Shown in pieces: positions 19,882 through 43,425 of a stretch of DNA of 64,000 bases. The notes under the pieces were generated by a model. That model did no database searches and was not told where the DNA came from. It saw nothing but the letters and a program-made list of their open reading frames with translations. The translations under genes and the position numbers were made by a program. How positions within the stretch are numbered: position 1 is the stretch's first letter; every line of letters begins with the position of its first letter. Source of the stretch: Selaginella tamariscina (lineage: Eukaryota > Streptophyta > Lycopodiopsida > Selaginellales > Selaginellaceae); contig PUQB01000174.1 in assembly GCA_003024785.1 (NCBI GenBank), positions 307,985-371,984 on the forward strand, in the 5' to 3' direction.

Positions 19882-21763
19882 TTCATAACTATAAGAGCTG
19901 TCTCAAATTGTAAGTCTTTAAAATTTCACGTTCGAACAATCGCTAACTTATTATTTAAAATAAATTTATATAAATAAATTTTTTTAAGTTATTATTTATA
20001 GCAAACTTCTTGACATTTATAAAAATATTTTCCGAAAAGAATACTTAGATTTATAACGATTCATGAATAATACATATTAACGTCCATATTCATCACATGG
20101 AAAATATGTTTTTTAGAAAATAAATTTTTGCAGAATCACCTATTTAGCACTTGGTAACTGAATGATGGGGGCAGTCTTTGTTAATGATACGTGTTTCATA
20201 ATTAATTTTTTTTAAGAAAGGAAAGAAAATTGAAACACATAGGATTTTTCATTAATTAACTTTAAAATTTATATTCGCTTAATAAGAACACATACAAACA
20301 CAATCGCACTCAATCTCATAGATATGATTTTTTGATATAAGAAAGATTAAAGGCCGAACTCACTAGTTTCCTAATTACATAAACATGATTTTTACAAATG
20401 CACTCTTTTTTTTTTTCTTGTCTTTAAATTATATATTAATACAATCACAAGACGAATAATTTATTTATTTCCTCCATAATCTTAAATATGCATAAAAATG
20501 AACACATGTTTATTTATTATAACATCTTAATGAAACTATGAATATTAAACTTAATATAAACTTGTTTCTCAATCCATTTACATTTTTTATTCACTTGCAA
20601 CATTAAACATTATTTATAATATTTATATAAAAAATTCATAATTTGCATTGAATGTTAAACATATTTAAATAAGAGTTGTATCATAATTTATTTTTAAAAA
20701 CTATTGTATTATCTTTAGTTGAATTTGTTTATAGATTAAAATTTAGTTGAAAGAGGTAATTACTTAATGATACCCAATTTAAAATGATGTAATAATATCA
20801 ATTTGTGTGTATATTACATTTAAAAATGTAAAAAAACTTAATTGTTTTTTGTTTTAAAATGAAAATAAGTGACATGAACACTTTCAAGATAATTATTATT
20901 TATAAATCATATCATCCTTGTGTGAAAGAAAAACTTTTATATTTCTATGATATAAAACATTTACAAAGTAATTTTATATCATCTTTATAAAATAAATATT
21001 GTGTCTTCATAAAACTTTGGTGACCAAGTTATATTCACACTATTTAATATAACTAAGAAAATAGTACTTTAGAAGTACTTGAATCATATATGTTAATATG
21101 CAAAGTTTGTATCGACTACTATAAAAATATATATTTATTGTAAATAGTCCCATTTAAATATGAAGAGTATAACTAGTGAAACGTACTTAACTTGAATCAC
21201 ACAAACGTTTTCCCATATGCTAGTGGGTCATGAATGAAACTCAAGGTAAAACAAACTTAAGAGTGACCTTAATTAAATTAAACACATAATTTTATATGTG
21301 CACTGTGATGCATGTAAATATATAATACACACATAAAATATATACGAGTTACTTATTATATTCAAGATATAACCATATTACATAAACCAACACATACAAA
21401 AGAGTCTTACACATGTGTATATGTACATGCACAAAGATGAATATATATGTTTGTGCAATTTTAGATGTAACTAAACAAAAATGTTAACGATGAACAAATT
21501 AATAAATATATGTTTTAAAATGAGATGTGCTTGATATAATAAAGCATTAATAAAGGTTTATAAATACAAGAGAATGAATAAAATATGACAAATTCATTCT
21601 TAATTTTCTCCATTGCTAATAGGATATATCCTTGTTTTAAAAATTCCTATATTCACGACACAAGAATATTCTAAGAATGTTTTGGGAACTAGAATATTCT
21701 CGGTATGTTTTACAACCTTTTAAGGTTGTTATTTAAGTGAGGGTTACTGGTTTAGGGTTGAAG

Positions 21764-23125
21764 ATGGTGCTCCAAGAGATTGGTACTAAGCTTTTACAAG
21801 CTCTAGATCGAGTTAAGAATGCTAACAGAGTCGACGATGCTGTGTTTACAAGGTGTATATCAGACATTTCAAACACTTTACTGCAGGCAGACGTGAACAT
21901 AAAACAGGTGATAACTCTTCGCGAGGGCATCAAGCGAGTGGTGGACTTCAGTAACATACCATCCGCTCACAACAAGTACAAAGTCATCCGGAAGGCTGTC
22001 TTTACCGAGCTATGCAACCTGCTGGACGTGCCTCAGTCGCCGTATACATTGCAGAAGAGAAAGACGAACGTGGTTATGTTCGTGGGTCTTCAAGGCTCCG
22101 GTAAGACTACTACGTGTTGTAAGTATGCTTACCATTATAAGAACAAGGGATTCAAACCTGCACTCGTCTGTGCCGACACATTCAGGGCCGGTGCGTTCGA
22201 CCAGATGAAGCAGAATGCAACGAGGATCGGTGTCCCGTTTTACGGAAGCTACAGTGAAAGTGACCCTGTGGAGATTGCTGTGAAGGGTATAAAGACATTC
22301 AAGGAGACGATCCACGACTTGATCATAGTCGACACGAGCGGCAGACACATGCAGGAAGCTGCCCTTTTTGAGGAGATGAGGCAGCTTGCAGGTGCTGTCT
22401 CTCCGGACTTGGTTGTGTTTGTGATGGACAGCAGCATAGGACAGGCAGCCGCCAGCCAGGCATGGGCCTTCAGCGAGGCTGCATCAGTGGGTGCGGTGAT
22501 CATCACAAAGATGGACGGACAAGGGAAGGGCGGTGGAGCTCTGGCAGCCGTCAAGGAGACGAACAGCCCGGTCATTTTCATAGGTACCGGAGAGCACATG
22601 GAGAATCTTCAACCGTTTGAAGTGAACAGGTTTGTGACGAGGCTTATGGGCAGTGGTGATATCCAAGGATTGGTGGAGTCTGTGAATGAGTCAGTGCCTC
22701 TTGATCAGCAGGAGGAGATGATAGAGAAGCTGTCACAGGGGAAGTTTACTATGAACATGATGGTGAGTATTCTCTCTATGACTGAGGGAGGCATAGAGTC
22801 CCTTCTCTCCAAGAAACTGTTACCACCTGGGAGAACGCAGGAGACGGCGTTACGGAAGAGGAAATTTAAGGTGATGGCGTGCTCGATGACTGATGAAGAG
22901 CTTGATAATCCCAGTGTGAAGTTTGATTCTTCGAGAGTAATGAGGATTGCGAGGGGATCTGGGAGAAGAATAGAGGATGTGTATGAGATGATTGATACGT
23001 ATAAGAGTATGAGCAAGACTTCACTCAAGGACTTTGCAAAGTGTGGGTCGAACTTGAATCAAGCCAAGAAGATGTTGAAGTCTCGTGGTTTTGATGTGAA
23101 CCAAGTTATGAGAATGTTAACGTGA
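21764..23125 (+). CDS. SRP54-like signal recognition particle GTPase, intronless and divergent
   Basis: A paralogue of the 54-kDa SRP subunit, which binds signal sequences and 7S RNA and docks ribosomes to the ER through its GTPase. The ORF is a single uninterrupted exon of 453 aa from the ATG at 21,764 (an in-frame ATG at 21,737 would add nine residues unlike the family's MVLxxxG start). The N domain covers about 1-90. The G domain has GLQGSGKTTT at 108-117, DTFRAGAFDQ at 138-147, DTSGRH at 190-195, TKMDG at 248-252 and GTGEHM at 274-279. The M domain keeps the RNA-binding RIARGSGR at 394-401. Compared with usual plant SRP54 (roughly 490-500 aa, from memory) it is shorter, and the methionine-rich finger-loop part of the M domain is replaced by a short divergent stretch. 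It looks like an old retrocopy with a maintained frame. Upstream lies GAATATTCT-rich sequence (21,665-21,700). Confidence 0.9.
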   Translation: MVLQEIGTKLLQALDRVKNANRVDDAVFTRCISDISNTLLQADVNIKQVITLREGIKRVVDFSNIPSAHNKYKVIRKAVFTELCNLLDVPQSPYTLQKRKTNVVMFVGLQGSGKTTTCCKYAYHYKNKGFKPALVCADTFRAGAFDQMKQNATRIGVPFYGSYSESDPVEIAVKGIKTFKETIHDLIIVDTSGRHMQEAALFEEMRQLAGAVSPDLVVFVMDSSIGQAAASQAWAFSEAASVGAVIITKMDGQGKGGGALAAVKETNSPVIFIGTGEHMENLQPFEVNRFVTRLMGSGDIQGLVESVNESVPLDQQEEMIEKLSQGKFTMNMMVSILSMTEGGIESLLSKKLLPPGRTQETALRKRKFKVMACSMTDEELDNPSVKFDSSRVMRIARGSGRRIEDVYEMIDTYKSMSKTSLKDFAKCGSNLNQAKKMLKSRGFDVNQVMRMLT

Positions 23126-27716: not shown

Positions 27717-28280
27717 TTAGGGTTCTCTTGTAGACGGGCCCGGATCAGGAGGAGGTACTGGTGGATTGTAGGCGGCACAACTTGTTCCCGTTGCACAAAA
27801 TGCTTCAACCGTTGCACATGTACAATCTGGAGGATCGGGTTGAATGTCGTGCCGAACCTCATAAACCTGTGGCCCTACTTGCCGTAGCACTCGATACGGT
27901 CCTTTCCACTGAGGAAGGAGACTCTTAGCTAAACCACGTACCGTAAGCTTGGGAAAACGAACCAACACCAGTTCATCAACCTTGTACTCCAGGAGGACGA
28001 TGATGCGAGTTGTAGCGTTGTTGTTGTCCTACTTGTACGCGGCCCAAGTGTTCTGCTGACTCCGCACGAACCAATGGAAGAATGCTCGTCAGATACCGAT
28101 CCCACAACCTAGCATCAGCAGCTCGCGGTAACCGAGAAGGCAAACCCAACTCCGTTGGCAACACCGGGTCATGACCATAAAGCTTATATGGGGAAGTACC
28201 AATGGAACTTTGAACTCCAGTGACATAAGCATATCGGAGAGACGGCAGATAACCATCCCAATCGAATGTTGAAAGTTCAC
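27717..28280 (-). pseudogene. Gypsy integrase C-terminal region, out of frame with pol
   Basis: This continues integrase in shifted frames: the family block around YKLYGHDPVLPTELGLP, then a C-terminal SH3-like segment near 27,860-27,960 (LVLVRFPKLTVRGL ... WKGPYRVL). No chromodomain was noticed. The slips separate it from the main pol frame that ends at 28,277. Confidence 0.75.
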
Positions 28281-30316
28281 ATATTTGCGATCATCCCCTT
28301 GAAGGTTCTGACGAGCCGTTCCACTAAACCATCTGTCTGAGGATGATAAGCACTTGTGAAAGTGTGGCGTATCCCTAGTCGAGATGTCAAAACATGAAAT
28401 GCCTCAGCCATAAATGCAGGACCATTATCCGAGAGAATTCGCTCCGGACAAGAATGCTGAAACACGACCCGATTAAGGAGAAACTGACCAACAGCAGAAG
28501 CAGTCGCACTAGCAAGAGCACCAACTTCTACCCAACGAGTTAGGTAATCAGAAGCAATAATAACGTACTCGTTACCAGCAGTTGACCGCGGAAAAGGTCC
28601 CATCAAATCAAATGCCACCAATTCAAATGGACGAGAAACTGCAATTGACTCCAACCGTCCTTCCGAAGCACATGGGGGAGTATTGCGAGCTTGGCACCAC
28701 ACACAACTACGCACATACCGAATCACATCTCCTCGCAACTCCGGCCAATAGAAAGATCTGCGCAGCTTCTCCATCACCCGACGATGTCCCATGTGCCCGC
28801 CAAGAATAGGAGAGTCATGGTAAGCATGGAGGAAGCGTGGAATGAAGATTGAAGGCACCACCAACCGCAAAGGATCATCTGGATCAGTCCCCACAAAATA
28901 AAGAAGGTCATCCTGAAGGCGATACTGTGAATGTAAATGCCTGAAAGGCAAGTCATCAGCAAGTGATGCAGGATTCTCAAACCCATCACGAAGCCTTCGA
29001 ATCCACGGCTCAACCTTTTGAGCTTCCCGAACCTCATCCAAAGACGGCAAATCTAACTCTGCATTCTGCGGACACTGAACGTCAAGCACAGCAACTGCTG
29101 ATGGTACGGAATCTTCATCCAAAAAGTCCACTGAAGCTGGAACAACTGGTTCCTCTGGGGCAACAGAAGAGAGAGAAGGTGGAAGAGGAGCCCGAGAAAG
29201 AGCATCAGCATCAGCCATGGAACTCCCTGGACGATGAACAACTTCAAAGTCGTAAATTTGAAGTTTCAAGGCCCACCGAGCAGTACGACCAATCAAATTC
29301 TTCCGCTTCAACAACGAAGTGACTGCTGCATGATCGCCTTCCAACAACGTCCGCGAACCATGCAAGTAGGCATGGAGCTTCTCAAAACCCCAAACTGCTG
29401 CTAGACACTCCTTTTTGTCGTGGAGTAATTCACCTCTGCTGGCTGCAATGTACGGCTGATGTACGCAATGGGATGTCGTTGGCCAGGAACACTCGTACTC
29501 TCCTGCATCAATACCCCCGAGGCCGATGTCAGAAGCATCTACACGCAAGATGAAAGGACGGGTGTAATCCGGGTACGCCAAAACTGGAGGAGTCGTCAAC
29601 AACTCTTTGAGATCTGCAAATGCCTGCTTGCAATCCTTAGACCAAACAAAAGAAGTCATTGACGATTTCAACAACGCGCGCAACGGTGCAGTACGATCTG
29701 AAAGATGATCCACAAAACGACCCAGATATTGTACCTTGCCAAGAAAGCGTTGCACATCATTCACACACTTTGGCGTAGGGAACTTCAAAACTGCAACTAG
29801 TTTGTCAGGATCGACTTGCAAACCTTCACGTGAAATGCGATAACCCAGATAAGTGGTGTCCTTTGATCCAAACACACACTTAGATGGCTTCAACTTCAAA
29901 CCAACTTCCCGCAGCCGATCCAAAACCTTACGTACATCACCGACATGCTCCTCCCACGTTCCATCCGAATGGATCAAAACATCATCGATGAAATCGGCAG
30001 TCACCTCCGGCATGTCGCAAAGAACCTCGTCCATCATACGTTGGAAAGTTGCTGGAGCATTGCTCAAACCGAAAGGCATCACCAAGAACTCGTACAGGCC
30101 AAATGGTGTCCGAAAAGCAGTCTTGGGAATGTCCATGTCAGCCATCGGAACTTGCCAATATCCAGATGCGAGATCTAACTTGGTGAACCAACGGCTCCGC
30201 CCCAGTCGATCCAAAAGGTCTGCAGTATGAGGAAGTGGGTACACATCTGAGACGGTTACCTCATTTAATGGGCGATAGTCAATGCAGAATCGAACGCTCC
30301 CATCAGGCTTCGTCAC
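28277..30316 (-). CDS. Gypsy pol: reverse transcriptase, RNase H, integrase core
   Basis: A 679-codon frame. RT begins near KPDGSVRFCIDYRPLN and holds the catalytic box as FIDDVL (usual YIDDIL). The palm/thumb and RNase H follow (RPFILRVDASDIGLGGI for the first Asp). The integrase zinc finger is present (GHMGHRR ... CVWCQAR). The DDE core has FDLMGPFPRS, LSDNGPAFMAE and the Glu in VERLVRTFKG. The start is not a true initiator: the protease-RT junction is a frame slip at about 30,313. Confidence 0.92.
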   Translation of the reverse strand: MTKPDGSVRFCIDYRPLNEVTVSDVYPLPHTADLLDRLGRSRWFTKLDLASGYWQVPMADMDIPKTAFRTPFGLYEFLVMPFGLSNAPATFQRMMDEVLCDMPEVTADFIDDVLIHSDGTWEEHVGDVRKVLDRLREVGLKLKPSKCVFGSKDTTYLGYRISREGLQVDPDKLVAVLKFPTPKCVNDVQRFLGKVQYLGRFVDHLSDRTAPLRALLKSSMTSFVWSKDCKQAFADLKELLTTPPVLAYPDYTRPFILRVDASDIGLGGIDAGEYECSWPTTSHCVHQPYIAASRGELLHDKKECLAAVWGFEKLHAYLHGSRTLLEGDHAAVTSLLKRKNLIGRTARWALKLQIYDFEVVHRPGSSMADADALSRAPLPPSLSSVAPEEPVVPASVDFLDEDSVPSAVAVLDVQCPQNAELDLPSLDEVREAQKVEPWIRRLRDGFENPASLADDLPFRHLHSQYRLQDDLLYFVGTDPDDPLRLVVPSIFIPRFLHAYHDSPILGGHMGHRRVMEKLRRSFYWPELRGDVIRYVRSCVWCQARNTPPCASEGRLESIAVSRPFELVAFDLMGPFPRSTAGNEYVIIASDYLTRWVEVGALASATASAVGQFLLNRVVFQHSCPERILSDNGPAFMAEAFHVLTSRLGIRHTFTSAYHPQTDGLVERLVRTFKGMIANM

Positions 30317-31113
30317 AAGGTGAGGTTCGCACGCCCAAGGACTTCGAGATTTCGGATAACACCCTTCTCCAACATCTCTTTGACATTCGCTCGTAAGATC
30401 TTGAGCTCCTTTGGTGACCGACGCCGAACAGGTACCTTGATTGGCCTAGCATCTCCAGTTGGAATAGGGTGGCGTGTCGCAATCTTGGCCCCAGATGACA
30501 AGTCGAAGTTGAAAAGATCAGCATACTCCTTCTTGAGTTGATCAACAACTACAGCACGACGATCATCTGATGGATCCAGAGAAGGAAAGGAAGAGCATGA
30601 AGGAAAATGGTTGGAAAAGGGTGAGACAAAAGTGATGGAAGCAGAGGTGGAAGCAGATGGACGAAGTGGAATAGAAGTAAGAGGAATGGAAGAAAGACGA
30701 GGGAGAGTCAAACAAGGGGGAGACTTTTCAAAGTCACACTTGGCATGATTGCGAGTTAACCAATCCATACCAAGAATAAGGTGAAAAGCTTGACTCGGCA
30801 CCACCCGCAAAGATTGAAGCTCGAGCTCACGATCATCCACACGAACAACAATGTCCACTTCATCCGCGAACAAGCATGAGTATGTCCGTTGCCGTACAGA
30901 ATGAAGACTGGTTCTCCGCACGACGCAAATGAAGGCTGCAACGTGTAGCAACAGATTGAGAAAAGAGGACAAACTTGAACCTGTATCCACCAACACTGAA
31001 AGGAAAACAGGACGTGGCGTGTGATTAAAACGAGCTTGAAAAGTGAAAACCGGATGATTTGGTGCCGAGTGAACCCCTTGATGATACTCCCGAAAGAAAG
31101 ATGGAGGGGTCAC
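30313..31113 (-). CDS. Gypsy aspartic protease and start of RT
   Basis: A 266-codon frame. The retropepsin active site VDTGSS occurs early, and the C-terminal flap-side motif LILGMDWL about 90 codons later. A linker rich in Ser/Pro follows, then the N-terminal RT region (GDARPIKVPVRRRSPKEL). It probably derives from a gag-pro-pol polyprotein now split by indels. Confidence 0.85.
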   Translation of the reverse strand: MTPPSFFREYHQGVHSAPNHPVFTFQARFNHTPRPVFLSVLVDTGSSLSSFLNLLLHVAAFICVVRRTSLHSVRQRTYSCLFADEVDIVVRVDDRELELQSLRVVPSQAFHLILGMDWLTRNHAKCDFEKSPPCLTLPRLSSIPLTSIPLRPSASTSASITFVSPFSNHFPSCSSFPSLDPSDDRRAVVVDQLKKEYADLFNFDLSSGAKIATRHPIPTGDARPIKVPVRRRSPKELKILRANVKEMLEKGVIRNLEVLGRANLTL

Positions 31114-31379
31114 TAATTTATTCGCACGAGGACCCTCCTCTACTCGTGCGATTCGTCGTTTCCCGGAAGATCCACTGCATCACAACCTTCCACTGCAGCA
31201 GCACCAACCGGACGCTGTTGATGCCATGGCCTCCATCCTGGAAATGGGGGACGCCAATCGGGAAACCGTTGACAGCGCCGATACGTGTGTCCAACCTCAT
31301 CACACGCCCAACAACGAACTGCACGTCCACGTCCTCGTCCACGGGCCCACCTTGTGCTGGTACACGAGCGGCAACAGCC

Positions 31380-32099
31380 TCAACCTCCATCGGAGCAGGT
31401 CCATCCCCAACATGAAGTGGAACAAGAGCACGTGAAGGCGCAAAGTGGGAGAGGTGACGACTCATATCGTTGTGCCAGCCTCAAAGCATCGTCAAGAGTC
31501 ACTGGAGCTAGTGCATGCACAAGCCCCACAAGGTCTTGACGAAGTGCTGGCCACAACATACCTAACTTGATGCGTTCCGACATGTTAGGTTCTGCACGCA
31601 GCAAAAGGCTTCGAAAGCGAACACCAAACTGCATCACCGACTCAGATGGCTCCTGACGAATACGATGCAACTGCTGAAAAGCATCATCACAGTCGTCCGC
31701 ATGCCCAAATGCACGTTTGAAGATCTCTGGAAGAATATTCCAATCTCCACGAGTTGCAACGTCCAGACCATTGTACCACTGCAACGCCGTCCCTTGAAGA
31801 CAAGTAGGAAACTCGCGCAAACACTGAGCACCGTCCCACGAATGATATGTGGCAACCACAATGAAGTGGTCAAACCAATGGTACACATCATCTCCAGGAT
31901 TTCCGCAAAAGAAATCCGGCCGGACACGGGGGTTTGCAACATGAGTAGGAGGAGTACCCTGGACTGTGAATGCTGCCATCAACTGAGAATGATTGTTCAG
32001 TTGCACACGCATGGCATCCAACAATTGCATGAGTAACTGCTCCACAGACAAGGGATTTGCCTGTTGTGGATTCATGGACGAAGAAGAGACAAAATCCAC
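31380..32099 (-). CDS. Gypsy gag (capsid)
   Basis: A 239-codon frame that starts near the primer-binding region. It carries the gypsy gag core (HWFDHFIVVATYHSWDGAQ ... LQGTALQWYNGL ... DDAFQQLHRIRQ). The zinc knuckle CX2CX4HX4C (CWACDEVGHTYRRC) lies just beyond it at about 31,277-31,318 in another frame, so a slip separates capsid from nucleocapsid. Confidence 0.88.
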   Translation of the reverse strand: MDFVSSSSMNPQQANPLSVEQLLMQLLDAMRVQLNNHSQLMAAFTVQGTPPTHVANPRVRPDFFCGNPGDDVYHWFDHFIVVATYHSWDGAQCLREFPTCLQGTALQWYNGLDVATRGDWNILPEIFKRAFGHADDCDDAFQQLHRIRQEPSESVMQFGVRFRSLLLRAEPNMSERIKLGMLWPALRQDLVGLVHALAPVTLDDALRLAQRYESSPLPLCAFTCSCSTSCWGWTCSDGG

Positions 32100-32220
32100 A
32101 AAAAAAGAATAGATCTAGACAATGGAAAAGCTAGACCTAAGAAGACAAAGAAAATTGATAAAAAGACACAAATCCGAGCACTCCGTAGGGACAATTAGAG
32201 GTGCCCCTCACCTCCACCAA

Positions 32221-32382: not shown

Positions 32383-32792
32383 GTTTAAAAATAGAAAAGA
32401 ACATTCTCTTTTTAAGTTTAAGATTGCATGTGTAAAAATACCATAAAGTTAGAGTTAATAATACTTCTTATCTGAGTGCGTGTGTGTGTGTGTACACGTT
32501 ATATGTATAATTATATATATAAACCATTTTGATTATTATTCTAATAATTACCAGCCGACCAAACATCAAAGCTCGGTAACCAAATCCTTGTTTTGCAGCT
32601 TCTTGTCTTTGAGCATCAGATTAGTTTAATTAAGTTATATATGATATATACACTAAAGAAATTAGTATAAATGTATACATATATACACACAGTTATATAT
32701 TCGATTGTGTATATATATATACCCAGGAATTCCGAAACACCGCCAATTCCAGCAAGTTTCATTGGTTGAGGGCCTTCACGCTCTAAATCCTG

Positions 32793-32794
<2 letters not shown>

Positions 32795-32861
<67 letters not shown>
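32795..32861. repeat. (TA)n tract in a rhodanese intron
   Basis: About 33 TA units within the 114-bp intron between the FWLNGGFD and KLAGIGG exons. Confidence 0.95.
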
Positions 32862-32862
<1 letters not shown>

Positions 32863-33827
32863 CATGCATTAATATATATAATGCGTGAATATATATAATA
32901 TACCCCTTCTTCTGCAGCATCGAAACCACCATTTAGCCAGAAAATGTTTCTGTAACCTGCCTTATACATTTGCTCACAAGCTGCAAGAGATCTGAATACA
33001 AAAGCAAATATATGCATATATAAACCACACACACACACACACATCACACAAAGCAATATAAACTTTGCAATAATAAAAACAAAAATGTGGAATGATTAAA
33101 AAATAGTATTGATCGATGCACAAGAGATTTCATTGATATTAATATTGAGTGTGTCATCTCCGCTGATGTTTACCTGCTACAATCTTCTGCATATGTATAC
33201 GTACATGCATCCGCATGTGTGTGTGTGTGTGTGCGTGTGTGTGATTTAAACGTCAAGAAATGCTGACCTCAGTCCCTTTTGGCAAGCAACAATAACGTTC
33301 GAACTTTTTGGTATACTTGCTACTACCTCTGGCATAAATCTCCTGCAAAACATGTTGTCTAAATGACTTGATTATTTTAAACATAAACATAATTACTTTT
33401 ATATATATTTACTTAAACAGCCAGTTTGGATTAATACACTTACTCGTTGTATTTCATCAAAGCCAAACCACTCCACCAACCACCTAAAATAAACTTAAAC
33501 AATTACGATAAATTACTATGTAATGTGTGTGTGTGTGTGTGTGAGTGAGAGAGAGAGAGAGAGAGAGAGATGTATAGATCATTAATGTAATAATACCCAT
33601 GGCAAAACTCGAAAGCTTTTTCAGCAGTGACCCTGGATCGATGCTTTCATCTACGTCATATACAGGTATCCACATGCTCCCTTTTACCCATGCCTGCAGA
33701 GATACATTTAATTAATGCATCATTTTACTTGTTTAGTCATAGATAAATTAAGCAATACATTTATTAAAAAGTTAAAAGATTGTAAAAGAGCATCTCTCAG
33801 CTGAAGGACGAACATCCAGTAATGTAT

Positions 33828-33836: not shown

Positions 33837-34043
33837 GAGTCCCCACAAAAAGAGGGCTTCCGGGCTTCCGGGCTTGGACCCGGAATATTCTAAAGAATCT
33901 ACCAGAATATTCTTAGAATATTCCTAAATATTCTTAGAATTTAGGATTTTGGCTCAGTCGGCAATTAACAACAAAAAATATTTAATCATAGCCATGTTTA
34001 TACTGTATTATTAAAGTTTTATTTCAACACCAAAGAGTACAAT

Positions 34044-37000
34044 TCAACACTTGTCACTTCTTCTTACGATTGAGCAATGTGCAATTCGTGAACCACCAGT
34101 CCTACTTGACGTCGCTATTGGTTGGGTTGGGATTTCCTCTGGCTGGATGTTCTCTTTAATCCTGTTCATAGCAATTCTCCCGAGCTCAGGGTTCTTCTCA
34201 GTCCCAACAATGTTTCTCCCCAGCTCGATAGCTGCAAGCATTGAGGACCCCGTACCACTGCCTATATCCCAGATAAGATCACCTGGCCGGGTGAGTCGTT
34301 CTATCACGAGCTGCATCAATCGAGTGCTCTTCGGTTGGTAGTCCATCCTGCATGTGAAGATAATGGTAAATACTTAAATTGTTGAAATGAAATGCCTACC
34401 ATGGTTCTTGGAACCGCTCAGGATTATCAACAAGAATTGTTGATGACAAACGCAGCGGATTATCGCGCAATCCTCTAGATGCATCTTGGAAGACAAGGAG
34501 CAGGATGCTCTCCTGTTAAAACATCAAAAATCATTAATGAACTTCATGAATAAAGAAAAAAGTACCTTCATCTTGTTGCGGTAGCCCCAACCACGCCCTC
34601 TGTAGATGTAGTACGTTGCAGCAAGTTGAAGGTCCACCACACTTGCAGCTCGGACAACTTGATCCCAGGTGTTTGCTGCAGCAAACACAACCAACCAACC
34701 ATTTGCAGCCATATGCATACCTGCAAACTGGAGTGCTTCATCGAACTTCACTGGATCAAGGTAGAGGTATGGCGTATCACTCGTTGTATTTCCTGGCAAG
34801 GTCCCATTTGGAAGGTCGAAGATCACCAAGTTGAAACCATATTCTCCCGCAATATGCTGGTAGCGAGTCTGGCTGTCAGCTGTATGGTACCTGGCCACCT
34901 GTGTCTGAACTTTTCTATAAGGAACCAGTCTAGCGTCAGGAACCTCCTCTTCCTTCTCATCCGTGAGCACGGCCTGTTGCATCTCCTCGATGTCATCAAT
35001 CGCCAAGAAATTATCACCTCGAGTTGTAGCAAGTGAAGGGACGAATGTGACCAAGTCATCCTTGATGTCCATGGTTCCCTGCGATGGTAGCACTTCAGAT
35101 AAATTGAAGAAGGCAGCTGGATCGCGAGTAGTGGAGGTGCCAGCTACTGTATCTGAGGTCTTCTTTGACTGCTGCACAGGCTGACGCCGCTTTGCCTTGG
35201 CCTTTGTCTTCTTAATGAAGTCGACCTCTGCCGGATCCCATGAGATGCATGGGAGATCTTTTGAGTGTTCATTGTAGAGATCCTTCTCCCATGTTGGTGG
35301 TTGCCCAGGTGGATAATCAAGCCAGAACGGTACGTGTACACGTCGAACTCTGTCAGGCCAGATCTTGTCTTCGACCACATGTGTGGTGCTTCCATGTAAT
35401 CTGACCAGAATACCATAGTCTGTGTGTGAGGCACCTTTCTCGCTGCGACATACCTGTAATGAACATATAGTAGTGTCAGAATGTAACAATGTCAAGAAGA
35501 TCATCCTTACCTCCAAATCATCCTTCTTGCTGTCTCTTCGTGTTCGAGGAACTCTTTCGGCTCTATGGAGTAAGTGAACTTCACACACTCATGGAATGGC
35601 TGGAACATCACGTTCTTGCATTTTACCCGCACTTCATCGTACCAAGTCGTGAAATCTGTAACCGGCCTGCTCCACTCGCCATCCTCGATGAGTCCCGTGA
35701 GAATCTGTACTGCCTCCTCTCTGATCGCCGCCAATACAAATCGATAGTAAACCACCTTATCCACTCCTTATCCTGAACACCCGGCAATCCAAGTGTCTCT
35801 TGCTCTCTCTTCAGATCGAGACGTACCAGTTTATTGAAGTACATGATTCTCGTCTCGTTTGGAATTCTCGCCCTTGAAAGCGCGTACAGCTTTTCCAACC
35901 CCATCCATCTGCATTGTTTCCATGTGATTTGGGTCACCTTGTCGAACCACTCTTCACCCAATGCAGGATCGATGATGGCTAAGATCTTCATCATGCGCTT
36001 GTCATGCTTAATGTAGACCTGTTGTTGCTCCTGGTATTTGTTGCCTTTGGATGCCCTTGCAGCCTTCTCAAGATCATCCTCAATCTCACTCTGTAATTCA
36101 CAGACGTAATCAACTAAGTAATATAAGTGTGAGACGTGGTACCTCAAAAAAATCTTTGCACAGATCAAATTCGGAAGTGGATGCCAAGCTTGTTGTCCAG
36201 TGCGCTTTCCTTCCACTTTCTTATGTCATCTCGTTCCTTGTCACTGAGCCTGGCCAAGATCTTCGCTGTGCCCTCCTCACTGGTGCAACATGTCTTCACA
36301 GATAGCAGAAGATGTGGCAGTGTGGTTTGCACTGCCGTTGCGGAGGAACTGCATATTTGAAAATCTCGAAGTTAGTTAATCCTATGATCTAGAGGTCACT
36401 ATGTTTACCTATTAATTTGCTGAAACATTGTCACAAGCTGAAGATTATCCATGACCCCAGCACGGATGAAGCCTGAACGCACTCTCACTGCCCACTGATT
36501 CTTATCTTCCGTGTCTTCTATGTACAGCTTCTGAAGCACCTTTAGCCTGTGATTACCATCCCAACAGATGAACTTCTTCATCGAAAGCATTGGTGCCCAT
36601 TGCCGGAACATGTCAGACTGAAGCTCCTCCTCAAAAGCCAAATGCTGAGCATACATCGCTTCATCGCTTCTCAATGCTGCCAGATCTGCATCTGTCATGG
36701 GGTCCCCAACTTGAAGGATGAACTGAGTGGTGTTGCGCAAATAACCAACTGCCTTCTTGAAACTCCTAGTCAAAGATTCCAGATCCGCTGGATTGACTCT
36801 CCGCACCTTCATTTCCCAGAATTCGGCAAATAGGGACATCCGGTGCCTCTCCATATTCTCGGATTGTGATCTTCGCGAGAAGACGCACTGCACTCTCCGA
36901 ATGCATGCTGGCTGCAATGTTGTAAACTTCCTCATTATCTGGCACTTCTGCTTTCCCCTTCTTCTTCTTCTTAGCAGCCTCTGAATCTCCAGCAGCTTTG

Positions 37001-37937
37001 CGTCGTCTCTTCTTGTTCTTGGGTTCATCCTCTTCGTCACTCGACAAAGTCACTGCGCATGAGGCTTGTGTGCCTTCTGTCTGCTCCTGTGTCTCCTGTG
37101 GTAAGACATCATCCTCAACTTCTTCAACAAAGTCTGATTGTTCTTGTTGGGGTTGAACTACATCCTCTTGCTCTCCTGACCAGTCCTGCTGGCTTGCCTG
37201 TTCAACTGGAGCATCACTTGAAGGTCCTTGTTCCTGAACCACAGCCAGCTTCCTACTTCCTCTCCCACGACCCCGACGCCCTCTCTGAATTGCAGCTCTA
37301 GCTTCTGCTTCTCTCTCAGTAGGCTCCTTCATCTTCTTTTCTTGTAAACGTTGTGAAGAGCGCATCTACAAAAGCAATAAGGTTTAACAAAAAACTGTAA
37401 TAAATGTTCAAAGATGTTTAATAAAAATTAAAAAAACATACTAGCCCTCACAGTCGGCGTGCCGACTGAGAGAGCAGTTGCTGTAAGTCCCAGTCGGCAT
37501 GCCGACTGGGACTGGCAACAAAGGGAGGCCCAGTCGGCATGCCGACTGGGACTGGCATCAAAGGGGTCCCAGTCGGCATGCCGACTGGGCCTGGCAACAA
37601 AGGGAGCCCAGTCGGCATGCCGACTGGGACTGGCAACAAAGGGAGGCCCAGTCTGGGACTGGGAACGAAGCAAGGCCCAGTCAAAATGCTAGGTGGGACT
37701 AGAACAGTCAACCCTAGTCAAAATGCTGACTGGGGCTGGAACAGTCAACCCCGGTCAAAATGTTGACTGGATCTGGAACAGTCCACCCCAGTCGGCCTGC
37801 CGACTGGGACGGACAACGAAGTCAGTCCGAGTCGGCAGGCCGACTCGGATTTCTTGCAACTGTGAAGAGATGTAAAAAGATGAACAGATCATGAAAAGAT
37901 CATGAGCAGATCATGAAGAAATCAGAAAATACTCACC
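34044..37937 (-). pseudogene. ParB-like / beta-class DNA methyltransferase cargo gene, frame-disrupted
   Basis: Likely a 5' UTR exon ends at 37,937 (GTGAGT donor). Coding begins after TTTGTAG at 37,365 (MRSSQRLQEKK). A basic, nuclear-signal-like region follows (KNKKRRRKAA, AAKKKKKGK). Next is a ParB/sulfiredoxin-type box, ICWDGNHRLKVLQ, at about 36,570. A helical region follows (about 35,830-36,360). The methyltransferase has motif IV as DLPNG (usual DPPY), motif V region GMHMAANGWLVVFAA, motif X/I region PGDLIWDIGSGTGSSMLAA, and motif II GRNIVGTEKNPELG. That order (IV before I) is the beta class of N4-cytosine/N6-adenine enzymes. Introns 35454-35510, 34513-34565 and 34348-34399 are 52-57 bp and canonical; the last two join in frame. 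Others lie near 36,361-36,410 and 36,070-36,145. Slips lie near 36,830, 36,172, 35,765 and 35,370. Confidence 0.78.
37443..37860. repeat. Palindrome-bearing tandem array inside the MULE
   Basis: About 11 units of 36-39 bp. Four central units carry the perfect 18-bp palindrome CAGTCGGCATGCCGACTG followed by GGACTGGCAACAAAGGGAG; outer units are degenerate (CAGTCAAAATGCTGACTG and similar). The array lies between the divergent genes, in the presumed first intron of the methyltransferase gene. The half-site AGTCGGCA recurs at 33,955-33,963 and at 41,513, 41,532 and 41,565 near the element ends. Likely roles are binding sites for the transposase or the ParB-like protein, or a bidirectional promoter; this is inferred. 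Confidence 0.85.
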
Positions 37938-38337
37938 CCCTCAATGGAAGCCTATTGTGATTAATCCCTGGAGCCACACTTGCTCCACGCTATGCCCCCA
38001 AATGCGCCCCTGCTCCACGAAAACCTAGCCGCCCTAGCTGCCCTAGCCGCCCTAATTGCAAAACCCTAGCCGCCCTAAATCAATTAAAAACCAACCTAAT
38101 TTCTGTAAACATATTGCATGCATGATCGCCACTTGTACATAGTAAAACTTTTTAATTTACAAAAAACCTACCCAGACGCAGTAAATTAATTTCACTCTTC
38201 TACCCAGACGCACGCAATTAATATTATTTTTAATATTTGTCAATGAAATGATTGCCTCACGACTAACAAACACATTAACCATCGTGTGTAATATGTTCAT
38301 TGTCTTTGAATTTTAACTTTTGTTTGTTCCATTTTTG

Positions 38338-41300
38338 CTACATGGCAAGAATCAGCTCAATGGTGTTGACAAGGACTTCCCTGCAGATGAAGATGGTATT
38401 GCATTTGTCTTTGAAACAGATCTCAGGTCTGCATTTGACATTCCACCTTGGCAATCTTTTAAAGTGCTGCATTTGATGTCTGTTGTTGGTGGAGATGCTG
38501 CGAATGTTGAGGTAGAACCAGAAGGGGCAAGAGCTAGCAGTTTTGTGTATTACACACTTCTTCCTTCCAAAGGACCGCTATTCCGGTTGGAGACAACAGA
38601 TCGGGACAATTCTATGGTAACAATACTTCGCAATAGTCAGAGATGTAGGATTGGGAAGCAACTGGTGGTCTCGTCATCGATTCAGCAAGTTGCTGAGGTC
38701 CCAGAAGATTGCAACGGAAATGTGATTTACGAGTTGCCAGCACACGAAACAATGAAGGACAAGTACAAAGGGATGAATAGGAAGGATGGGTGTGATTACT
38801 GGACTCAACGCTGCACAACACATTGGAATGTTCCAGCTCGTGTTAGTCGCAGTTCATGTATTGGCCACATGAAATGCGTAAAGGAAACATGTCCGTTCAT
38901 CAGCTTCAGTAAGAAAGCAAATGACTGCCAATTTAAGGGCACCATTGATAAAGTCCAGTTATCTTCAGATGGTAGAGTGCTTGGAATGAAGTGTGTGCAT
39001 TGCAACAATGAGCCCCTTCTAGTGCAGACATGCTCCGTTGTTGCATATTACATAATTCCAGATGATATCACATGCACGAGGCTTTTCATCCATCTTGGAG
39101 AACATCAACACCCACGTAGACCACCCGAATCCATGGTCTCTAAAGACAGAGCTAAGGAGACAATCAACAAAGCAGTCGCTGCAACCCCAAGAACTAATCA
39201 ACGTGTCATAGAGTTTCAAGCAGCACGCAATATAATTTTGGAAAAACTGGTAACAGATTCTGGAGATGTATCATACGACAAGGTTCTGTCAGATCTACTA
39301 CCACTCACAAATCACCGCCGGTAAGCAAAAAAATTATTATTTCCTTTTGGAGATGCTTAACCTTTCCACTGTAGAACAAGAGAATGGATATCTCAGGCTA
39401 GAACAAGAGACACTCGTTTCAAAGAAGGTTACGAAGGACTTCTGCAGTTAAAGAAGAAGCTATCAATCCCATTCATACATGTTATCCACATACCCGGAAT
39501 GGACCTCAACGGAGCTGAAGAGCAGCCTTTAATCTTCAAAATGACGGTTGCCGGCCCAGGATCCGGAATAGACTACATTAGAAGGTGTCAATCTGGAGGT
39601 GATCTCGAACAGCAGTGGGTGGTGCTAGACCACACATATCGTATTGATGATTGGTGTACACTGGGAATACATCTCTATGATCCATTGTAAGTATTAACAT
39701 ATCTATGTTTTAAAATACTTACTAATATAATGCACTTATGTTTGTGTAGTTTAAGGTCGATGGTGACACTTGCTTATGGTGACATGATCAGGGAGGATAG
39801 TGTGGCGGTGATCAAATTTTTGAACACTATGCTTCAAGTGTGCAGCAAGCAAGGACTTCATAATGTGAACTTTGCGGGGTTCATGTCAGATGAGTCAGGT
39901 GCAATTTGGTTAGCATTGCGTCAAGTTTTCAACAATGGGTCAAAGATGAGAGGAAGAGAAAGGAGTTGTTTGTTCCATTACATGCAGTCAGTGCGTCAAG
40001 TTACAAAGAAGTGGATACTTGAGGAACACAGGGAGGAGCACATGAACCTTGCACGCTCATGGCCTGCAGCACTAACCAACCAAGATAAGTTGGAACGACG
40101 AGTAATGTTGGAGTCATTTTGGGAAGGCAGGTCCAGTAACGTTAGCGCTTTGCAAACATGGCTGTCATGGTGGGCAAGACATGAAGATCATATTTCCATG
40201 ACAGAGATAATTGACTTGACAGAAGATGGTGTTGCGAATGTGCCTACCACTAACAACTCCGAAGTTGTTCATGCAAGAGCACGAAGAGCAAGGCTGACGA
40301 AGCGTGTTCCTTTGTTGGAGGCAACAATGTTAGATTTAACAGATGCTGTTTTCCAAAGTGCAAAGGTCAAGGCATCATTTGAAGGGAGATATTCAGGCAC
40401 AGGTCCTTCCATGGAAACTCTTCTGAAACGTGCACAGCAGAAACTTTCAGCGGGAAAATCAGTGTCTCCAACAACTTTTGCAAATCTTGTTAGTGATGAA
40501 GAGCATCTTGCAAGTCCAGAGTTTGCCTCTACAACAAATGTTCGTGTTCGAACCGTTCGTCAACCGTCAACTGGGGACCATGGGATTGATGCACTTCGTA
40601 CACATAGACATGACACACAATATGCAGAACAAGTCATCCCAAATGCACGCAGGAAAAAACTCAAGTTTCAAGATGTCAATGTCACTGAAAGAGAGACGTT
40701 GATGACTCAGTGGGCCATCAGACGCATTGGGGAGGCAAGTCAGGTGAAATGTCTAGGTCTCACTCAGGACGGTAACAGCAAGTGTGGCAGACCCATAGGA
40801 TATCCACATCGTGTACCGGCACCAGGATTTCACGGTAGACGGCAATATACAAATGCATTTGGGAACATTGAGTTCACTCATCAGATGTATGGTTCTGCCC
40901 ACGCGATTCGTTGCTTCAGACGACCATATGCAGGGATTCCTCCTGAGAGTATTCCAGAAGTTCCAGAGGTTTGGCCAGTTCAAAAAGGAACAAACTTGAA
41001 TGCAAATGAGGTTGAAGCTCTTCTGAAAGCAGGATTCAAGTTGGAGGGATTTGAAGAAATGGTAGACGACAGTAGTAGCCGAATGGATCGAACACCATCA
41101 CCACCAAGAGGAGAGGGAGCACATAGAGTACCAACATACCATGGACGGAGTGTGCGAACACCAACAAGAATGTCCAAGGAACATGAGAAACATTACAACC
41201 AGGCAAAGATTCTTCAAGGTCGGATCAACAACGTGGAGGTGGTTCAAAGAGGGAAGACTGAGGCCTTCATTGTCTCTGCAGGCATGCAATCTGCTAAGGT

Positions 41301-41583
41301 AACAATTTCTACTGTTCCGTCATGCACTTGTGCAACTTTTCAGAAAGCCAAGAACTGGAGCCCCTGCCAACACATGTATTTTGTGTACACTCATGTTCTT
41401 GGATTGACCCAACGATTACTTACTTCTTACAGAGGCGGACCCTTACTCCAGCAGAAGTGCATCGGTTATTGGTTGATTGCAAGCGCAATGTCGAACCTGC
41501 GACTTTTAAGTCCAGTCGGTATAGTAAAGTCTAGTCGGCAAATAATTAGCGTTTTTCACTTGTTGGTCGGCATTTTATATTGA
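38338..41583 (+). pseudogene. Mutator-like transposase (FLYWCH-like, DDE, SWIM)
   Basis: Exons: about 38,338-39,320, 39,375-39,686 and 39,750-41,583. Introns of 54 and 63 bp have GT/AG borders and both joins are in frame. An N-terminal region with Cys/His spacing follows (HMKCVKETCPF ... GMKCVHCNNE ... GEHQHP), like the FLYWCH/WRKY-type DNA-binding part of MULE transposases. The DDE core has VVLDHTYRI, GFMSDESGAIWLALRQVF and the family C-x2-H box CLFHYMQSV. A SWIM finger follows (CTCATFQKAKNWSPCQH, CxCxnCxH). No in-frame ATG opens the first exon, so an upstream exon is missing or unrecognised. A slip near 41,404 moves the tail (DPTITYFLQRRTLTPAEVHR) into another frame. Confidence 0.88.
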
Positions 41584-41705
41584 AAGTTAAAGATAATCTA
41601 CTTGGCAAATATTCTAGAATATTCCCGTTTATTTGACAGAATATTCCTGGATATTCGGGAATATGCGAAAAGCCCGTTGTACGAAGCCCGGTTTTGCTAA
41701 TCCTC

Positions 41706-42821: not shown

Positions 42822-42887
42822 CTCAATCTTATACAAAACTTAAATAAAATATAGAAATATATATCATTAGGTTTGAACTGTTACTGA

Positions 42888-43027
42888 ATGGGTTCGTCTT
42901 TGCATCCGGGCCTTGCTCCATTGGCGTTCCTGTTGGGCACATGGCGTGGAATTGGTGAAGGTGGATTTCCTACAATTAAGTCCTTCAGTTATGGTGAAGA
43001 AATTCGTCTGTGGCACACTGGCAAGGT

Positions 43028-43100
<73 letters not shown>

Positions 43101-43425
43101 ACAATATATATATACATATAAACACATACAGAAGCATCATATGTGTGTTTTTGTGTATTTAATTAGAATATATTACACACACACACACACACAGACAGCA
43201 ACTATGCTGTGACTAACTTAATTGTTGCAGTTTAGGAGTAACTTTAGTTTTTAAATTAGCCTGTAATGGCATACACACAGAAGACATGGAATGCCTCTTC
43301 TGGAGAGCCAATGCATGCGGAGAGTGGCTACTGGCGACCAAAGCCTGATGGTTCTATTGAGGTCGTCATTGCGCAGAGCACTGGTCTTGCAGAAGTCCAG
43401 GTAATGTATGTACCAGTATATATAA

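Follow-up and report, generated by a model that had tools for sequence, protein, structure and literature searches.

A MULE-type transposon of Selaginella tamariscina carries a divergent gene with a bacterial-type methyltransferase fold and concentrates a CpG-containing palindrome

Introduction

Can a plant DNA transposon hold, as a standing part of itself, a methyltransferase gene of bacterial type, and what might such a gene do for the element? The question is raised by an element of 7,869 bp in a stretch of 64,000 nucleotides (the window) from contig PUQB01000174.1 of Selaginella tamariscina. An earlier note on this DNA, made from its letters alone, had read the element as a Mutator-like element (MULE) in which a transposase gene stands beside a gene for a methyltransferase with a ParB domain. 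We followed up this reading in the window, in other copies of the element and in a related family of the same assembly. The methyltransferase gene and the transposon were upheld, the ParB domain was not, and a palindrome concentrated in the element came to light as a candidate binding site.

Results

The methyltransferase gene belongs to the element

The assembly searched comprises 300.7 Mb in 1,391 contigs, and the counts of places given here are lower bounds. With the last exon of the transposase as query, all 40 places scored (762 candidates), the window included, were 99-100% identical over the whole query; with the methyltransferase region, all 40 scored (690 candidates) were 98-100% identical, and in 39 the match spanned the entire query. 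From the near-identity of its copies we infer that the element was recently mobile. Of the 39 other transposase places, the 20 best were fetched, and the methyltransferase half was present in 18 of these copies. The two exceptions, L029 (which retains the first 22 residues) and L032, are also without a recognisable left end and look like truncated copies. When the assembly was searched with the methyltransferase profile PF01555, all 150 places scored (739 candidates) were above the cut-off; they lie on many contigs and take two families together.

The second of these, a sister of the family in the window (family A), was reached through divergent PF01555 places. In its copy on contig C50 (L067 together with L056) both genes lie head to head, in the same order as in family A; the transposase is 54-73% identical by segment to that of family A and the methyltransferase protein 40-60%, a 16-residue piece at 75% being excluded. 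Because the two genes occur together in 18 of 20 copies and the sister copy keeps the pair head to head, the methyltransferase gene is, as judged from these copies, a standing part of the element. The claim that a MULE-type plant transposon carries a spliced bacterial-type N6/N4 methyltransferase gene was thus borne out, and among the copies fetched the gene is missing from its place only in the two that look truncated.

The exon 1 stretches of eight further loci all look like the sister family, several of them being decayed. Another sister copy, L066 on contig C516 (1-6001), is rearranged: portions of methyltransferase exon 1 and the C-terminal portion of the transposase stand in swapped orientation, and the breakpoints fall inside both genes. 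Between family A and the sister family the proportion of synonymous differences (pS) was 0.81-0.88 and saturated, so that the ratio of the nonsynonymous to this proportion (pN/pS) is given and Ka/Ks was rejected. In the methyltransferase protein, pN/pS was 0.21 over the half that binds S-adenosylmethionine (SAM; 74 codons), 0.30 over exon 1 (174 codons; 0.267/0.884) and 0.38 over the motif IV half (178 codons; 0.328/0.871). Six frame trials were made for the transposase, four of which (9-31 codons) were in wrong frames; the two that aligned, over 122 and 207 codons, gave 0.14 and 0.27, respectively. Since pN/pS is low between the families, this comparison indicates purifying selection on both proteins.

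The C-terminal part has a beta-class methyltransferase fold

The N6_N4_Mtase profile PF01555, named by the earlier note as a check on the minus-strand protein, matched its last exon (8.2e-10, 39.4 bits against a cut-off of 26.7) over profile positions 165-220 only, and the sister-family protein was also above the cut-off at 40.2 bits. DNA methyltransferases of PHROGs matched to 8.8e-13 with a query model that held several wrong-frame stretches. Solved relatives of the SAM half were MboIIA (1.2e-4), CcrM (2.6e-4) and DpnA (7.3e-4), with L11 methyltransferases similarly strong. Single-sequence profile searches reached the SAM half only; a profile of the two families, set by hhalign against 13 phage and plasmid methyltransferases, matched at 99.1% probability (E 7.6e-19, 24% identity) over 189 columns (columns 18-216), with DLPN opposite DPPY and the motifs in the order IV, then X, I. 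The same order is found in the protein itself, where FDLPNG precedes DIGSGTG, which confirms the reading of motif IV before X-I. On this profile evidence, the C-terminal part is a bacterial-type beta-class N6/N4 amino-methyltransferase fold. DLPN is present in all 19 family A copies that have the exon and in all eight divergent loci scanned, and the SAM motif DIGSGTGSS was found in six of these eight.

Wider relatives in the protein database were not found at E<=0.001 among the candidates scored (8000, 8000 and 1156), the plant coverage of the database being uncertain; several stretches of the query model were in the wrong frame in the first of these searches, and the scored part of the later query was right except for the last residues. 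No relatives were found in viral contigs, and one bacterial locus matched weakly, over 34 residues.

A palindrome is concentrated in the noncoding parts of the element

Between the two genes, the spacer carries arrayed copies of a palindrome, AGTCGGC-NN-GCCGACT, which contains two CpGs. The element has 17 occurrences of GTCGGC, and the remaining 56,132 bp of the window have five. Of the 17, 16 fall in noncoding sequence (1,698 bp) and none in coding sequence (6,170 bp), and one straddles the end of a transposase exon as placed; the first-order Markov expectation for the noncoding part has a mean of 0.23 and a maximum of 3 (500 simulations). Over 20 copies, AGTCGGC was counted 335 times in 149,818 bp of element and three times in 23,748 bp of flanking DNA. 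There are 4-14 palindromes per copy in these 20, and because L041 has 14 against 4-10 in the other 19 fetched, the array appears to expand and shrink. Half-sites also occur near both ends. At the left end, GTCGG[C/T] or its complement lies within 260 bp in 17 of 18 full-length copies and, at the right end, three sites recur at a constant spacing (19 and 31-32 bp) in all 18.

The sister spacer is a different repeat, of 137 bp, with a best match to the family A spacer of 42 bp at 76%. It nevertheless has 16 GTCGGC in 1,661 bp (Markov mean 0.33, maximum 2), and the sister copy has two more about 95 and about 115 bp inside its apparent end; the rearranged copy on C516 shows the same GTCGGC core in its spacer. 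Because the core is kept while the surrounding spacer differs between the families, the comparison suggests that the palindrome core is a candidate binding site. Three spacer units in the window, at 37670-37785, have lost the GGC core (AGTCAAAATGCTGACT type), and several of the changes are of a kind (C to T or G to A) that past cytosine methylation could have produced. The CpGs of the palindrome could be targets of host 5-methylcytosine (5mC).

The element is a MULE without long inverted ends

MULEs make target-site duplications of 8-10 bp, mostly 9, and their transposases have a DDE core, with a CxxH between the second D and the E, and a C-terminal SWIM finger. The earlier note had placed the element between 9-bp duplications, and ACTTCGAAA is indeed found on both sides (Table 1). 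The boundaries were then fixed as GAGTCCC at the start and CCTC at the end in 21 copies, the window included, in a test that supersedes a search with free shifts. Both ends could be located in 15 copies, and 10 of these 15 have exact 9-bp duplications; in the remaining five the flanks mismatch at 3-8 of 9 positions at this fixed boundary. With free shifts, L036 gives an exact 9-bp pair and L037 a pair with one mismatch, neither being counted in the ten. The terminal inversion is about 3 bp only (GAG...CTC). Long terminal inverted repeats, as in the TIR-MULE subgroup, are absent; the search for inverted repeats between the ends gave subterminal arms of 74-78% (best 25 of 51 pairs). VANDAL elements too are without long inverted ends.

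In the spliced transposase model, D413, D479, CLFH from 505, E603 and CxC from 957 give the spacing D-65-D-123-E, so that the motifs attributed to the transposase (DDE core, C-x2-H and SWIM finger) were all recovered, although the match to the SWIM profile was weak and below its cut-off (E 0.018; 15.0 bits, cut-off 19.6). The MULE profile PF10551 did not match the spliced transposase in hmmscan at E<=10, where SWIM alone was listed and the fast filters may hide weak matches. The sister copy keeps the D, D, CxxH and E segments, and its fetched stretch stops before the CxC. With Pfam giving a weak SWIM match and no MULE match, it is by its motifs, their spacing and the target duplication that the element is assigned to the MULE-type DNA transposons, without long inverted ends. 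Inside both termini, at 33884-33940 and 41606-41665, blocks of AATATTC / GAATATTC are repeated; they are present in sister copies too and are possibly a second binding site.

Structure of the leftward gene

The METHYLTRANSFERASE gene runs on the minus strand from 37365, in five exons separated by GT-AG introns, and encodes a protein of about 1,030 amino acids (aa), in agreement with the divergent spliced gene read by the earlier note. The stop of exon 5 was placed in the frame common to most copies. A six-exon model with four breaks was replaced by this one on comparing copies. An intron at 36091-36142 was rejected, as the frame is unbroken there in the form common to most copies and in the C516 sister copy; the C50 sister copy, unlike C516, has a frame break at the equivalent place.

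The window copy has several small indels in the gene. Other copies have them too, mostly at different places. Over 19 copies, exon 1 has 50 private and seven shared indel columns, longer single-copy deletions included, and the other exons have fewer and more mixed ones (e.g. one private and two shared, or five and six); a figure of 252 private gap columns in one exon came from a misaligned row (all rows being 565-581 long) and was discarded. Exon 1 is open in 5 of the 19 copies (L034, L039, L042, L044 and L045).

Exon 1 and the ParB question

The CWDGNHR box of exon 1 is conserved in both families. The adjoining RRVNP..L..S.KKA.GYLRN is, by eye, what we take to resemble the N-terminus of ParB, a likeness by which ParB identity is not established. 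The earlier note had called the DGNHR stretch a ParB domain and had proposed the ParBc profile (PF02195) as a check on the minus-strand protein. This part of its reading did not hold: PF02195 gave no match at E<=10 on corrected frames of both families, and none anywhere in the assembly, with 11 of 14 control genomes positive. Nothing useful for a ParB identity of exon 1 came from Pfam, PHROGs or NCBIfam, nor from comparing exon 1 with the PDB (by sequence or profile) or, by tblastn, with phage and plasmid DNA. A match by hhalign to five phage ParB proteins (34% probability, E 4.3e-4) covers 34 columns outside DGNHR; it hints weakly at some ParB-like stretch and lends no support to the box itself. 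AlphaFold models of exon 1 (mean pLDDT 35.5 and 49.8) were too poor for use. Among the phage methyltransferases examined, Pfam being run on 4 of them only, no fusion of ParB with a methyltransferase was seen. Exon 1 is accordingly described here as containing a conserved domain with a ParB-like box; of ParB only the DGNHR letters are present, and the domain is not confirmed as ParB.

Neighbouring features

The flanks resemble plant nuclear DNA, with Pfam matches above the cut-offs for SRP54 and cytochrome P450, a retroelement polyprotein, and Nodulin-like/NFD4 matches just below the cut-offs. The SRP54 GTPase gene (21737-23125, plus strand) is one long open frame (461 aa scanned) in which an intron is not visible. 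At 28277-32114 on the minus strand lies a retrotransposon labelled as Gypsy type, with reverse transcriptase, RNase H and integrase domains across several frames; its observed/expected CpG ratio is 0.82, the MULE having 0.59. Dinucleotide repeats abound in this stretch, and long (TA)n, (TC)n and (CA)n microsatellites at 32616-33095 and 42877-43212 read as open frames.

Table 1. Coordinates, in the window, of the element and its parts
Feature	Position	Strand	Remarks
Whole MULE-type element	33837..41705	.	7,869 bp; begins GAGTCCC, finishes CCTC
Left 9-bp target-site duplication ACTTCGAAA	33828..33836	.	identical to right copy
Right 9-bp target-site duplication ACTTCGAAA	41706..41714	.	identical to left copy
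Left subterminal half-site AGTCGGC	33956..33962	.	about 120 bp from left end
Methyltransferase gene, exon 5	34054..34347	-	motif X; motif I (SAM binding), DIGSGTG 34248-34268
Methyltransferase gene, exon 4	34400..34512	-	
Methyltransferase gene, exon 3, motif IV as DLPN	34566..35453	-	FDLPNG 34803-34820
Methyltransferase gene, exon 2	35511..36348	-	taken as single exon
Methyltransferase gene, exon 1	36409..37365	-	acidic/lysine-rich start, then conserved domain with CWDGNHR
CWDGNHR box	36546-36566	-	exon 1
Spacer array, 7 palindromes AGTCGGCNNGCCGACT and degenerate units	37452..37845	.	main period 39 bp
Transposase exon	38350..39320	+	start not placed; upstream first exon probable
Transposase exon with first D	39375..39686	+	VVLDHT 39619-39636
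Transposase last exon	39750..41534	+	end approximate: copies vary by small indels
Second D	39880-39897	+	transposase last exon
CLFHY	39967-39981	+	transposase last exon
Catalytic E (NNSEVV)	40252-40269	+	transposase last exon
SWIM-like CxC	41323-41340	+	transposase last exon
Right subterminal half-sites AGTCGG (41514), AGTCGGC (41533), GTCGGC (41566)	41514..41571	.	within 200 bp of right end

Discussion

What might the second gene do for the element? We tentatively favour, at slightly under an even chance, a reading in which the accessory protein would read the palindromes and modify or shield them, for self-marking or against silencing as in the VANDAL/VANC system of Arabidopsis, since the sites are most crowded between the divergent genes and variable in number. 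The concentration of palindromes in the element makes a role in end-marking or in escape from silencing more plausible. In this reading the element is an autonomous, high-copy MULE-type transposon with genes for a DDE/SWIM transposase and, divergently, an accessory protein. The AGTCGGC sites would be bound either by the transposase or by the accessory protein, through the conserved region at its N-terminus and middle. The accessory protein would then modify these CpG-containing sites or merely occupy them as a SAM-binding protein. Promoters and ends would thereby be kept from host silencing, or marked for transposition, and the module would work like VANC anti-silencing of VANDAL MULEs, through a different protein.

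VANC proteins bind arrayed short noncoding motifs and cause the loss of silencing marks (PMC5735166, PMC10398659). The layout is alike in being of MULE type with an accessory gene and tandem arrays of short motifs in noncoding DNA, the number of which varies between copies (PMC5735166, PMC10398659). The VANC21 motif YAGTATTAY, however, is non-palindromic and arrayed in one orientation, whereas a palindrome is found here, and the accessory protein of the Selaginella element has a predicted methyltransferase fold; the two are likened by layout and arrays and not by VANC sequence.

Several observations weigh against this reading. The catalytic motif [D/N/S]PP[Y/F/W] is absent, with DLPN in both families: the first residue of motif IV is kept, and one proline and the aromatic residue are lost. 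In the rotifer N4CMT, changing Ser and Tyr of SPPY to Ala (APPA) abolished activity (PMC8885841). The change from DPPY to DLPN, with loss of the aromatic residue in both families, speaks against simple catalysis and therefore makes the activity of the protein uncertain. Frame-breaking indels occur in many assembly copies, the window copy included, and the whole methyltransferase gene was open in none of 19 copies when judged under the six-exon model later corrected; the indels may be residual long-read errors in the assembly or decay. The comparison of families rests on two families only. Finally, the palindrome may simply be a site of the transposase.

This last point leads to a possible, if somewhat unlikely, explanation in which the transposase binds the AGTCGGC sites at the ends and in the spacer, acting also as an autoregulator, and the methyltransferase-like protein, with its SAM fold but no catalytic activity, serves transposition as a cofactor. 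The half-sites do lie near both ends, where a transposase must act, and motif IV is DLPN in both families. Against this, the sites cluster most tightly in the gene spacer, at 3.6-3.9 kb from the ends, and their number differs between copies as in VANC target arrays; DIGSGTGSS is kept in six of the eight divergent loci scanned and pN/pS is 0.21 over the SAM half. The methyltransferase might instead restrain the element or mark it for the host, or act on RNA or protein and not on element DNA. For the DNA methyltransferases (DNMTs) of retrotransposons, both self-limitation and RNA substrates have been discussed (PMC5890265), and the rotifer N4CMT deposits N4-methylcytosine (4mC) at transposons and is tied to their silencing (PMC8885841); but many near-identical copies do not suggest restraint and a motif concentrated in the element suggests a DNA target, and we consider both variants quite unlikely.

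Gene capture and amplification by DNA transposons are in print (PMC6710886), which would allow the gene to be a passenger in the style of pack-MULEs, captured and functionless in the element. The presence of the gene in 18 of 20 copies and beside its own transposase in the sister family, together with the low pN/pS, makes this very improbable. That a bacterial gene entered a plant contig by contamination or an assembly artefact has a negligible chance of being right: nothing among the scored candidates of the protein database was related at E<=0.001, hence no plant annotation there, but the gene has introns, the 150 PF01555 places scored lie on many contigs, target duplications flank 10 of 15 locatable copies, and plant-type genes are neighbours.

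With the VANC-like reading still preferred, the element can be set beside other systems in which methyltransferases and mobile DNA meet. Retrotransposons of Symbiodinium and Klebsormidium carry DNMTs, for which purifying selection is reported, and in other lineages DIRS elements carry adenine methyltransferases (PMC5890265). They share with our element the possession by a mobile element of its own DNA methyltransferase, but they are retroelements, with C5 enzymes in the DNMT cases (PMC5890265), whereas here a DDE transposon carries a bacterial-type beta-class amino-methyltransferase fold in a separate divergent gene. The rotifer N4CMT is alike in being a bacterial N6_N4_MTase domain gained by a eukaryote, with introns in the gene; it differs in that N4CMT belongs to the host, has SPPY and a chromodomain, and is tied to the silencing of transposons (PMC8885841), whereas the present gene is transposon-borne and has DLPN. 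In a fungus, a DNMT gene has more than 20 copies, thought to have arisen via transcript capture and exchange among telomeres and all inactivated, which is a different process from the MULE cargo described here; purifying selection on rice pack-MULE products is cited in the same paper (PMC6710886). Among bacterial enzymes, CcrM, MboIIA and DpnA resemble the protein in the sequence of the SAM half, and phage and plasmid beta-class methyltransferases resemble it over the whole domain by profile, with motif IV before X-I. Relative to CcrM, MboIIA and DpnA, DPPY is replaced by DLPN, nearly 800 residues precede the domain, and the divergence is far.

No paper on a MULE with a DNA methyltransferase gene was among the matches listed from open-licence PMC, which cover titles and the beginnings of abstracts, without supplementary tables. 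Transposons with a methyltransferase and MULEs with an accessory gene are known already; the combination seen here is new among the literature matches listed. It would be going further, and we think it unlikely, to see in it the first known DDE transposon with a DNA-marking enzyme of bacterial origin and an address of its own, reading the palindrome and writing N6-methyladenine (6mA) or 4mC or blocking 5mC, with DLPN as a new catalytic variant. If the protein acts on the palindromes, plants would harbour a self-marking transposon, and escape from silencing would be directly testable in S. tamariscina. If it is catalytically dead, the element would still be an instance of an enzyme from bacteria that a transposon has taken up and that selection has retained.

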